DNA from: Halarcobacter ebronensis | Lineage (GTDB): Bacteria; Campylobacterota; Campylobacteria; Campylobacterales; Arcobacteraceae | Assembly: GCF_013201825.1 (NCBI RefSeq) | Contig: NZ_CP053836.1 | Location: forward strand, 1,798,001 to 1,862,000 | Direction: 5' to 3' | Length of the DNA stretch: 64,000 bases | Part shown: in pieces, positions 48,236-64,000 of the stretch | Numbering within the stretch: position 1 is the first letter of the stretch | How the letters are laid out: each line of letters opens with the position of its first letter | Made by a program: the position numbers and the translations under genes | The notes under the pieces: generated by a model | The model's database searches: none | Told to the model about the DNA's origin: nothing | The model's input: only the letters and a program-made list of their open reading frames with translations

Positions 48236-48254
48236 AGGAGAAATCCTCTATTTT
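48229..48254. terminator. Bidirectional terminator between ask and proX
   Basis: An 11-base perfect stem (AAAATAGAGGA at 48229-48239; TCCTCTATTTT at 48244-48254) with a GAAA loop, flanked by A and T runs and overlapping both stop codons. Confidence 0.85.
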
Positions 48255-49219
48255 ACTGCTTTTGCCTCTTTTATCCAAGATTCAACTTTTGTTTTATTAT
48301 TATCTAACCATATTTTAACGTGTCTATCAATATCTTTCTCTTTTTTCTGACCATTTGTCATAAGCATATTTTCACCACTTACATCATTTACACTAAGTTT
48401 TACAATATCAAATAATTTTGCAATATCTTTATGTTTTGTTTTAACACTGGCATTAGATACAATTTTTTGTGAATTTACAGCAAAACCATAATCAACTCCA
48501 TTTGGCAATTTTGTAGAACTTTGGTTTGGATTAGCAGATTTAGTTACTTGTAAAAATACAACATCTTTTCCTGGAACTAATTTCCCACTTACCCAATATG
48601 GAGTCCAAGTATAATATAAAATTGGTTTCCCTGTTTTATAGTTTGCAATTGTATCTGCAATAAGTGCTGAATATTCACCTTGATTATGTTCAATTGTATC
48701 TCTTAATCCAAAAGCGTCTAATTGATACTCAATAACTTTTTCACATCCCCAACCTGCATTACAACCTGTTAAATCAGCTTTTCCATCTTTATTAGTATCA
48801 AAAATTTTAGCAATTTTTGGATCTTTTAAATCATTTATATATTTAATATTATATTTTTCCGCTGTTTTTTTATCTATTAAATAACCCTGGGCACATCCTG
48901 AAATAAACTCTGAATATTTTGCAAATTTATCTTCACCCAAAGCCTCTAGTTTTCCATTATGTAAAGGATCCCAACTTGAAGCTATAAAATATACATCATC
49001 ACTTGTTGCATTATTTGCAATTGTTTGATATGCTATATCATAACTCACATCATTAGTCATCTCCACATCATATCCCATCTTTTTTAGTAATTCAACTACA
49101 ATTTTCATTTGAAAAGACTCTTCAGCTATATTTGTTTTCAAAGCTGTAATCTTTGCAGCGCTCAATCCTGTTGAAAGTAATAGTGAAACTAGTGCTCCTA
49201 ATATTATTTTTTTACTCAT
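48248..49219 (-). CDS. proX: Glycine betaine/proline ABC transporter, substrate-binding protein
   Basis: 323 residues: signal peptide ([22 protein letters not shown]), then an OpuAC-type binding domain. The Trp-rich sites (SSWDPLHNG, YYTWTPYWVSG) and the Cys pair in GCNAGWGCE resemble ProX of E. coli. Last gene of the proVWX operon; one base overlaps proW. Confidence 0.92.
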   Translation of the reverse strand: MSKKIILGALVSLLLSTGLSAAKITALKTNIAEESFQMKIVVELLKKMGYDVEMTNDVSYDIAYQTIANNATSDDVYFIASSWDPLHNGKLEALGEDKFAKYSEFISGCAQGYLIDKKTAEKYNIKYINDLKDPKIAKIFDTNKDGKADLTGCNAGWGCEKVIEYQLDAFGLRDTIEHNQGEYSALIADTIANYKTGKPILYYTWTPYWVSGKLVPGKDVVFLQVTKSANPNQSSTKLPNGVDYGFAVNSQKIVSNASVKTKHKDIAKLFDIVKLSVNDVSGENMLMTNGQKKEKDIDRHVKIWLDNNKTKVESWIKEAKAVK

Positions 49220-50241
49220 TATTTCTCCTTTTTAACTAGTTTATAAATTAATCCTGCTGGTCCCTTTTGATACCATTTTATTTTTTGACTTTTATCTCTT
49301 GTTCCCATTGCTTGTGTTAATCTATCTAAAATAACCGCCAATAAAACAATTCCTAATCCACCAACAGCTGCAAGTCCAATATCAAGTCTTCCTATTCCTC
49401 TTAAAACCATCTGCCCTAAACCGCCAACGGCAATCATTGAAGCAATAACAACCATTGATAAAGCAAGCATCAAGGTTTGATTTATTCCTGCCATAATTGT
49501 TGGCATTGCAACTGGAATTTGTACTTTAAAAAGCATCTGTCTTGAACTTGCTCCAAAAGACCTAGAGGCTTCAATCAAATCCTCTGGGACTTGTCTAATT
49601 CCTAAATTTGTTAATCTAATAAGAGGTGGCAATGCAAAAATAATAGTAACAATAACTCCAGGAACATTACCAATACCAAATAGCATTACAATAGGTATTA
49701 AATAGACAAAAGCTGGAGTTGTTTGCATTGCATCTAATATTGGTCTTAGGATACTATCAACCCTATTACTTCTTGCACTCCATATTCCAAGTGGTAATCC
49801 AATAATAACTGAGAATAGAACAGCGGTTATAACTAAAGCCAAAGTAACCATTGACTCTTCCCACGCACCAATAAAACCAATTAATAAAAAAGATAAAAAA
49901 GTACCAAAAGCCATCTTTTTTGTGGAGAATTGAAGAGCTAGAAGAACAAAAAAAGCAATAACCACATAAGGTGAAAGATATTGCAAAAAGCCTTCAATTG
50001 ACTTTAATACAAAATCAATTGGTGCCTTTGCTAAAATAAAAAAGTCTCTAAAATTCTCAACAAGCCAATTAATACCTGAGTTTGTCCAGGCATCAAAAGG
50101 AATAACTGCATTATCAAAAGGGTGTAAAATATCAAAACTTTGCGAACTATCTAAATTATCAGCTGTTGTATGTACCCAATCTACAGATGATTGTTTATCT
50201 GCTTGAGCCGTAGAAGCATTTCCCCAAGGATCATTACTCAT
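49219..50241 (-). CDS. proW: Glycine betaine/proline ABC transporter, permease
   Basis: 340 residues: a soluble N-terminus of about 70 residues, then seven or so helices with the permease coupling motif ([22 protein letters not shown]). Matches ProW. The start overlaps proV by 8 bases. Confidence 0.94.
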
Positions 50242-51439
50242 AATCTACTCCTTCATCAAATACTTTTAATAGCCTACTTTTTGAAATGGTACCTTTATAT
50301 TTACCTTCTTCATTTATTACTGCAGTAGGATATTTATGCTCTGCAATATCAGAGATAAATTCAGATATTTGAAGATTTTCATTAATAGGACTTTCATCAA
50401 TTATTGCATCATGAATTGTGCCACCTACTCTTTTTTGCTCTTTTAATGATTCTAAGGTTAGAATTCCAATATATTTACCACTCTTTTCAATAAAATATGC
50501 ATAATCATCATCAAAATCTGAGATATATTGTAAAGCAGCTTTTATCCCTGTTCCCTCTTTATTTATTATTGTTGAGCGTACTTTTTTTGCAATATGAGAT
50601 GCTGTTAAAACTGAAGTTACATCAACACCTTTAAAAAATGATTTTATATAATCATTTGCAGGATTGTTTATAATCTCTTCAGGAGTTCCAATTTGAGAAA
50701 TCTCACCATTTTGCATTATTGCTATTCTATCCCCTATTCTAATTGCTTCATCTAAATCATGTGAAATAAATACAATAGTTCTTTGGGCACTATTTTGAAG
50801 TTGCAGAAGTTCATCTTGCATCTCTGTTCTAATAAGAGGATCCAAAGCGGAAAAAGCCTCATCCATAAGCATAATATCTGGATTATTAGCTAAAGCTCTT
50901 GCAAGTCCTACACGTTGTTGCATACCTCCACTTAGCTCATCTGGATATGATAATCCATAATTTTCAAGTCCTACTTGCTTTAAAGCATCAAGAGCAGCCT
51001 CATATCTACTTTTTTTATCAACTCCACTTAACTCCAAACCAAATGAAACATTATCCAAAATATTCATATGTGGCATAAGTGCAAAAGATTGAAAAACCAT
51101 TGAAATTTTCTTTCTTCTTATCTCTATTAAATCTTTATCATTAAGATTTGTAACATCAGTTTCATCAATATATATTTTTCCAGAAGTTGGCTCAATAAGC
51201 CTATTAAGTAATCTAACTAAAGTAGATTTTCCAGAGCCTGAAAGCCCCATTATTACAAAGATTTCACCTTCGTATATTTCAAAACTAGCATCTTGAACAC
51301 CTATAGTCATACCAGTTTTCTTAAAAATTTCCTCTTTTGATTTTCCATTTTGTAGCATTTTTAAAGCTTTTTTAGGTTCTTCTCCAAAAACTTTAAATAC
51401 ATTTTTAACAACAAGTTTTTTATTTTTTTTATAATAAAT
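50234..51439 (-). CDS. proV: Glycine betaine/proline ABC transporter, ATPase ProV; apparent AUU start
   Basis: Walker [10 protein letters not shown], signature LSGGMQQR, Walker [12 protein letters not shown], and a C-terminal CBS-like pair. The first ATG (51358) would remove a segment ([21 protein letters not shown]) that clearly aligns with the ProV N-terminus of E. coli. Upstream of it, back to the in-frame TAA, there is no ATG, GTG or TTG. ATT at 51437-51439 lies 7 bases after AGGAG (51447-51451), so I place the start there, giving 401 residues, close to E. coli ProV (400). Confidence 0.85.
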
Positions 51440-51643
51440 TTTTAAACTCCTATAATTTTATTTACATATGAAATGTAATATTTTTACAACTATTATGTAT
51501 AAATTATACTTAATATAAGATAAAGTGATCTTAAATGCATCATTGTTTAAGAAAGAAAATTTGGATTTTAAAACAAAAAAATATTTATGAAATTATATGT
51601 GGTATTTAGATTATGTGGTGTGAAAAGAGATTAAAATATAAAA

Positions 51644-62457: not shown

Positions 62458-63045
62458 TTAGTCCATATATGGTATATCTAAATTTGCATCCCTATCACTT
62501 GCTGTAAAATCAAAACTACTATCAACTATCAATTTTGTTAGGTTCTTTTCTATCACTTTTATTTGTAGTTTATGATAGTTGTTATGACTCATATTATTTT
62601 CTATTTCTACTTTATAAAACCCCAAAATTATGGGATGTATTCTGTTTTGATTCTCAATTAATTCATCTAAAAAAGATTTTAAAGATGAGATATCATACTC
62701 ATTTATCTTTGTTAATTTCCTAACTAAATTTCTTACAAATTGTTTTTGATGATACCCTTCACTCATCTCTAAAAGCTTTGATGCAGCATAAATATCAGCC
62801 TCTTGCTCTGAATAATTATAGAGATATCTAAAGTGGTCACAAACGATTTGTACATACTTAGGGTAGTGCTTTAATACAAAAACCAACTCTTTTAAATCAC
62901 CATCAATTAGAACTTGAAAAAGAGTAGCTGTACGTTTCTCTATTTTATCCCAGTGATTGCCCTCTTGCTTAAACTCACCTAAAAATCTGTCATAAGTTTC
63001 TAAATCATATTCTTCTTCCATAAAACTTGTATATGCAATATTCAT
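62458..63045 (-). CDS. Unknown protein, first gene of the nitrogenase-associated cluster
   Basis: 195 residues, predicted mostly helical, acidic, without signal peptide or membrane helix. It ends 10 bases before the ArsC-like gene. I do not recognise a family; its position next to the nitrogenase-associated gene suggests a nif accessory role, by inference only. Divergent from the aldo/keto reductase gene. Confidence 0.7.
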   Translation of the reverse strand: MNIAYTSFMEEEYDLETYDRFLGEFKQEGNHWDKIEKRTATLFQVLIDGDLKELVFVLKHYPKYVQIVCDHFRYLYNYSEQEADIYAASKLLEMSEGYHQKQFVRNLVRKLTKINEYDISSLKSFLDELIENQNRIHPIILGFYKVEIENNMSHNNYHKLQIKVIEKNLTKLIVDSSFDFTASDRDANLDIPYMD

Positions 63046-63109
63046 ACCTTGTATTGATAGTGGTATAGAATTTGTATATAATATTTTCTCATAAAAAGAA
63101 AGGTTAAAT

Positions 63110-64000
63110 ATGCTATCAAAATACTCATTTGGAACTTATAGGGTAACTTACCAAAATCCACTTCATAAAGAGGCTCTGAAATTTGCTTTGGATAATGGAA
63201 TAAAACATATTGATACTTCATCAAACTATATGTATGGTGAAGCAGAAGTTTTAATAGGACAAGTTTTAGAAAATAGAAAAAGAGAAGATTTTGTTATTGT
63301 TTCAAAAGGTGGGTATATTCAAGGTCCACTTTTAAAAAAAGTAAAAGAGGGACTTAAAGTTGATGATTTAGTAAAATATGATGAAGATTGTTTTCACTCA
63401 ATAAATCCAGATTTTATAAGTGAACAAATTGAAGCTTCATTAAAAAGACTAAACACTAGCTATATTGATGTGTATCTACTTCACAATCCAGAATATTATC
63501 TTTTAAAAGAGATAAAAGGGGGAATGACTGCTGAAGCTATGTTAGAGCATTATAATACAATGCAACAAAGAATAAAAAGAGTTTTTGCCTTACTTGAACT
63601 AAAAGCAAAAGAGGGAAAAATAAAAGCCTATGGAATTAGTTCAAACTCATTTGCCAAAAAACGTTCAGATATGCACTTTTTAGAATACAAACATTTAGTT
63701 GGTTATGCAAAAGAGATTATGGGAGATAAACACCACTTTAAAGTAATACAACTTCCAATGAATCTTTTTGAAAGAGATGGTGAAGAGTGTGCAAAATGGG
63801 CACATGAAAATGGCTTAGAAGTACAAGTAAATAGACCATTAAATGCTTTTAAAGAGAACAAAATGCTAAGGCTAGCTAGTTATGATGAGTGTATCAACTA
63901 TGAGCTTCTTTTAAATCAAGTAAAAGAGATACCAAATGAACACTTCCAAGAGGCTCTAAAAGAACTTTTAGCTATTGAAAATGAGTATAGATGGGCAGGA
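63110..64000 (+). CDS. Aldo/keto reductase, C-terminus outside window
   Basis: Opens at the ATG at 63110, with AAAGG about 7 bases upstream, and runs open for 297 codons to the window end. N-terminal FGTYR, NGIKHIDTSSNYMYGEAE with the catalytic Asp and Tyr of the family, and IDVYLLHNP around 120. Members are NADPH-dependent carbonyl reductases. Divergent from the nitrogenase-associated cluster, with a TATAAT around 63077-63082 upstream. Confidence 0.85.
   Translation, partial: MLSKYSFGTYRVTYQNPLHKEALKFALDNGIKHIDTSSNYMYGEAEVLIGQVLENRKREDFVIVSKGGYIQGPLLKKVKEGLKVDDLVKYDEDCFHSINPDFISEQIEASLKRLNTSYIDVYLLHNPEYYLLKEIKGGMTAEAMLEHYNTMQQRIKRVFALLELKAKEGKIKAYGISSNSFAKKRSDMHFLEYKHLVGYAKEIMGDKHHFKVIQLPMNLFERDGEECAKWAHENGLEVQVNRPLNAFKENKMLRLASYDECINYELLLNQVKEIPNEHFQEALKELLAIENEYRWAG

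Follow-up and report, generated by a model that had tools for sequence, protein, structure and literature searches.

The proV gene of Halarcobacter ebronensis very probably starts at an AUU codon, at positions 51439-51437 on the minus strand of the window, that is, of the whole stretch of 64,000 nucleotides that was analysed. Initiation there would be directed by an AGGAG Shine-Dalgarno (SD) sequence and would use the ordinary initiator tRNA. The near-cognate start appears to be an old feature of the lineage, and is probably a weak start retained by selection that limits expression of the proVWX operon.

Results

The proV locus and its predicted start

The ATPase of the glycine betaine/proline ABC transporter, ProV, was identified by its equivalog score (537.6 bits for NCBIfam NF007480, cut-off 444) and by the adjoining proW and proX genes. 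ProW matched NF008196 with 509.6 bits (cut-off 439) and ProX matched NF008334 with 394.7 bits (cut-off 215). proV is the first gene of an overlapping operon with the order proV-proW-proX. The features of the locus are as follows.

50234..51439, minus strand: proV coding sequence, 401 aa counted from ATT, followed by the stop
51437..51439, minus strand: predicted proV start codon ATT (AUU), read as fMet; the sole start-like in-frame codon after the SD, and ATH in relatives
51447..51451, minus strand: Shine-Dalgarno AGGAG, with a 7-nt spacer to ATT; motif kept in relatives
51356..51358, minus strand: ATG inside the frame, codon 28 counted from ATT; the position that a standard gene finder would choose, but not considered the start
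51458..51460, minus strand: in-frame TAA closing the proV frame upstream, read from the sequence
50236-50234, minus strand: proV stop TAA, ending the 401-codon frame from ATT
49219..50241, minus strand: proW, 340 aa, ATG start, 8-nt overlap with proV (NF008196)
48248..49219, minus strand: proX, 323 aa, ATG start, 1-nt overlap with proW (NF008334)

After the upstream TAA, the minus strand reads AAT TAT AGG AGT TTA AAA ATT TAT TAT AAA AAA AAT AAA AAA, and the proV frame continues beyond this region with CTT GTT GTT AAA AAT GTA TTT AAA GTT TTT GGA. The preliminary description of this DNA had noted that no standard start codon lies in frame back to the TAA, and reading of the minus-strand frame bore this out, as ATG, GTG and TTG were all absent between the TAA at 51460-51458 and the ATG at 51358. 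Its placement of ATT at 51437-51439, 7 nt after AGGAG and giving a ProV of 401 aa, was also correct in both coordinates and counts. The claim that the conserved ProV N-terminus extends upstream of the ATG at 51358 agrees with the NF007480 match, which begins at residue 8 and so takes in 20 residues ahead of the internal ATG. The best solved relative of ProV, the OpuA ATPase 7ahc, was likewise aligned from query residue 8.

The predicted near-cognate start is conserved in the ProV lineage

We gathered ProV orthologues from both whole genomes and public contigs; 35 distinct sequences were left once duplicates had been removed. All of them fall into a single clade (support 100/100) of the ProV tree, which comprises Arcobacteraceae and related Campylobacterota families. 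The codon at the start site was ATT in 19, ATC in 14, ATA in one and GTC in one, and ATG in none. In 34 of the 35 orthologues, ATT, ATC or ATA (hereafter AUH) followed an SD-like motif of the GGAG, AGGA or GGGA type at a spacing of 4-9 nt. This is the comparison of 5' regions in related genomes that had been proposed as a check, and the recurrence of the same arrangement while the codon drifts among ATT, ATC and ATA is more than would be expected by chance. Twenty of the 35 had no in-frame NTG/CTG codon between the preceding stop and the start-site codon; the stop lies directly before this codon in L045 and one codon before it in L010, L129, L138 and L139. Counted from the start-site codon, ProV was 398-404 aa long in all 35, compared with 399-400 aa in a clade whose proV genes start with ATG. 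The latter is a separate Campylobacterota ProV clade (L140-L144, 57-59% identical), in which 5/5 have ATG, with AGGAG or GGAGG-type sites 6 nt upstream.

The GTC codon was observed at the proV start site of L134 (same as L046), from the small-genome genus g8, and the relatives L132 and L133 have ATC. GTC is the same unusual codon as that of Streptomyces sigR.

The preliminary description had read an AUU start at this locus, and this reading is supported by the conserved position, the SD spacing, the protein length, the upstream in-frame stops and the non-conserved internal ATG. The lack of an NTG alternative, the SD distance and the kept codon place proV among genes with a predicted conserved near-cognate (AUH or GUC) start. 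Comparative evidence strongly supports AUU as the proV start codon in H. ebronensis.

Alternative start sites

The internal ATG at 51358 is the first NTG in the proV frame, and many relatives have ATG at this position. Translation from it would give a ProV of 374 aa, with the similarity further upstream being a relic. We consider this extremely unlikely since no SD-like motif is found near this ATG in the window, the residues preceding it are conserved in the protein and belong to that part of the ATPase fold which OpuA 7ahc covers in the alignment, and the position reads CTT in L009, L038, L121, L137 and L138. Moreover, with an internal start the upstream SD-N4-9-ATH arrangement would have no reason to persist. 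The internal ATG was rejected as the proV start because it is not conserved, is without an SD and would truncate the ATPase fold.

A second alternative is that an NTG codon or a frameshift is involved, the start being either an ATGGAG that overlaps the SD or an ATG destroyed by a sequencing error. In six orthologues (L002-L005, L011 and L118) ATGGAG does overlap the SD in frame with proV and could serve as the start there. However, the window reads ATAGGAG rather than ATGGAG at this site, ATGGAG stands in another frame than proV in L009, L010, L040 and L114, and an in-frame NTG is altogether missing ahead of the start-site codon in 20 of the 35 orthologues. The out-of-frame cases indicate that ATGGAG belongs to the SD region rather than serving as a start, and it was rejected as the proV start on account of these four relatives. 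A misleading start codon inside an SD has been demonstrated for Streptomyces sigR (PMC5472188). A sequencing error is excluded by the recurrence of the arrangement in independent genomes, and overall we regard this alternative as very unlikely.

The region upstream of proV

Two palindromes lie upstream of the proV SD.

51463..51477, minus strand: 15-bp palindrome TACATTTCATATGTA, operator-like, upstream of the proV SD
51485..51499, minus strand: second palindrome TACATAATAGTTGTA, 22 bp upstream of the first

Palindromes of 15 bp with the pattern TACAT-N5-(A/T)TGTA were found upstream of the SD in 15 of 33 proV genes of the AUH clade compared to 0.6 expected, often paired 22 bp apart; a spacing of ~22 bp was also seen in L004, L011, L114 and L119. 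TACAT-N5-ATGTA palindromes were absent from the ATG-start ProV clade. They resemble an operator and probably serve as one for some regulator, so that the weak start is probably combined with control of transcription. For a leader structure or riboswitch upstream of proV, there was no Rfam match and the predicted fold was not unusual (z ~ -0.6). A sigma-70 promoter scan of the same region gave scores no better than those of shuffled sequences.

The initiation machinery

The anticodon arm of the initiator tRNA, GTCGGGCTCATAACCCGAAGG, is intact and standard, and an altered initiator tRNA was rejected as the cause of the AUU start. IF3 aligned over nearly its full length with a solved IF3, and a degenerate IF3 was likewise rejected as the cause. 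The infC start is a conserved TTG in 12 of 12 Campylobacterales genomes (L145-L156). The preliminary description had compared proV with infC, whose AUU start is self-limiting through IF3. The likeness in the kind of start codon stands; the self-limiting loop does not carry over, as an AUH-started infC that would close the feedback was not found in the 12 genomes of the order, all of which have TTG. With a standard tRNA arm, a near-full-length IF3 and a TTG-started infC, ordinary near-cognate initiation is the simplest reading. IF3 disfavours near-cognate start codons elsewhere (PMC10158994; PMC5472188), and by analogy we infer that it would also disfavour the near-cognate start of proV.

Other probable AUH starts in the lineage

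The preliminary description had pointed to tatD as a second non-standard start within 64 kb. The tatD frame (23200-22400, minus strand) indeed has no NTG start and carries ATA at the Met position. In the window, as in most Arcobacteraceae loci read, this ATA overlaps the stop codon of the upstream gene as ATAA. The codon is ATA in the Arcobacteraceae loci read, except for ATT in L221 and L231; in other Campylobacterota, ATG (L232, L234) or GTG (L233) is found at the same place. The two non-standard starts in 64 kb turn out to reflect a lineage-wide habit.

We screened a sample of ~0.7 Mb plus the window. It comprised 385 open frames for which a sampled relative had an orthologue, a number that includes some artefacts; on inspection by eye, many flagged frames were set aside as antisense or rRNA artefacts. 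Two genes stood out.

L159:10627-12426 (G000:C1:330627-332426), minus strand: dCache histidine kinase, orthologues L293-L297
L238:17006-18718 (G000:C1:277006-278718), minus strand: EAL/GGDEF gene, relatives L298-L308

In the histidine kinase (dCache_3, HisKA, HATPase_c), AAGGA-N6 is followed by ATA or ATC in 5/5 genomes of the genus, and this AUA/AUC start is kept despite an otherwise poorly conserved N-terminus. The EAL/GGDEF gene has ATA in a single clade (G000, G010, G002 and G014) and ATG in sister species, the next six genomes read (L302-L307). Within the genus, ATA and ATG replace each other at the same SD-spaced position, a clean start-codon switch. The screen also gave two further, weaker AUH-start candidates.

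Three other frames were observed. In G002, frame a:-342458 has ATA after AAAAGGA where G000 and G012 have ATG, a possible start switch. A histidine kinase (L158:16775-17953, minus strand) reads AAGGA-TGTT-ATT-ATA without an NTG for 35 codons, and G012 has a TTG near the start. In the window, the frame at 62458-63135 (minus strand) extends upstream of an annotated-looking ATG (63045), begins VPNEYFDSI and is conserved in one relative; this may mark another start site or an overlap with an adjacent gene.

The screen suggests that AUH starts could account for ~1% of genes in the lineage, a figure from a small sample with no matched control lineage. A broader proposal, which we put forward tentatively and with some doubt, is that AUA, AUU and AUC form a regular expression-tuning class in Arcobacteraceae, perhaps ~1% of genes and including proV for stress transport, histidine kinases and EAL/GGDEF for signalling, and tatD. 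Such a class would be missed by every gene finder restricted to ATG, GTG and TTG, and may form a single regulon governed by the activity of IF3.

Probable selection for a weak start

On the ProV tree, the third base of the proV start codon changed at least 9 times among ATT, ATC and ATA and never to G, which would give ATG. Taken alone, ~9 third-base changes without a G are modest evidence and would be compatible with chance. Start switches toward AUG are far commoner than the reverse; 1 of 61,358 ancestral AUG starts became AUU, and ~4% of GUG starts changed to AUG (PMC5622118). Since one substitution makes AUG and switches to AUG are the commoner kind, long retention of AUH suggests that the weak start is favoured. 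Selection for a weak proV start is likely on this argument from codon retention.

It could instead be that proV is under no special regulation, the lineage tolerating AUH in a small fraction of genes, in which such starts are retained through drift or because a low level of expression is enough. AUH starts are shared by tatD, the histidine kinase, the EAL/GGDEF gene and probably two more genes, and loose habits of the lineage could explain part of the pattern; the TTG start of infC also counts for mere tolerance. On the other hand, a single base change would give AUG, yet the AUH start of proV persists throughout a multi-family clade, and neither IF3 nor the initiator tRNA anticodon arm has a gross defect. 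We consider mere tolerance rather unlikely.

In the mechanism that we favour, AGGAG would direct initiation 7 nt downstream at the AUU at 51439-51437, which the ordinary initiator tRNA would decode. This near-cognate start would be an old trait of the ProV lineage in Arcobacteraceae and neighbouring Campylobacterota families, in which selection probably retains a weak start that limits proV translation. Because the genes overlap, the limit would extend to proW and proX, and the weak start probably also limits the whole glycine-betaine/proline uptake operon. We infer initiation at the AUU itself, its low efficiency, the operon-wide effect and the dependence on IF3 from the sequences.

Discussion

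To our knowledge, few bacterial genes have conserved starts other than AUG, GUG and UUG, most of the cases being infC, pcnB, sigR and ccpN. infC, encoding IF3, starts with AUU, AUC or AUA, including in E. coli and Streptomyces, and pcnB starts with AUU in E. coli. Like these genes, proV appears to have a near-cognate AUH codon in place of AUG after a Shine-Dalgarno sequence, kept in relatives, but it is a different gene with a different function. Moreover, infC is TTG-started here, which gives no sign of an IF3 feedback loop resting on AUU as in E. coli. E. coli and other enterobacterial proV genes (proU operon) encode the orthologous transporter ATPase in the same proV-proW-proX order. They differ in their start codon, which was ATG at one fixed place in 70/70 gammaproteobacterial orthologues read, in contrast to the predicted AUU here.

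Further parallels are found in Streptomyces and Staphylococcus. Streptomyces sigR is a stress-response gene with a conserved non-canonical start, third-base drift between GTC and GTT and a misleading canonical codon inside the SD (PMC5472188), and one proV orthologue (L134) also has GTC. The sigR gene differs in encoding a sigma factor, in having a strong extended SD (AGGAGGTG) and in the demonstrated repression of its GTC start by IF3 (PMC5472188), whereas control of proV by IF3 is putative. In S. aureus, ccpN (AUA) and cvfC1 (AUU) have conserved near-cognate starts that give ~10% of the expression obtained with AUG when the medium is poor (PMC13009471). These genes resemble proV in the conserved AUH codon, which is regarded as a translation brake, and cvfC1 is also the first gene of an operon; they differ in relying on extended SD pairing (PMC13009471), the SD of proV being in most cases a short core of GGAG or AGGA. 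An extended SD of the S. aureus type, compensating for the weak codon, was not found in the proV orthologues, most of which have a core of 4-5 nt (GGAG, AGGA or AGGAG).

Conserved non-canonical starts are thus of a known kind, and proV is new among them within the open literature searched, where we found nothing relevant on Arcobacter proV or on AUU starts in Arcobacter. The proV case combines drift among three codons with a short SD. A lineage-wide AUH class would be more novel than proV alone.

Where gene prediction follows rules that admit only ATG, GTG and TTG, the starts it gives for proV and tatD in these genomes must be wrong, and in this lineage a small group of genes would escape such rules. 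A transporter gene that appears to have kept an AUH start over many genera, drifting to every alternative except AUG, would be a clear example in nature of a weak start being favoured by selection. Through its conserved AUH start, proV also allows the idea of an osmotic operon tuned by IF3 to be put to the test.
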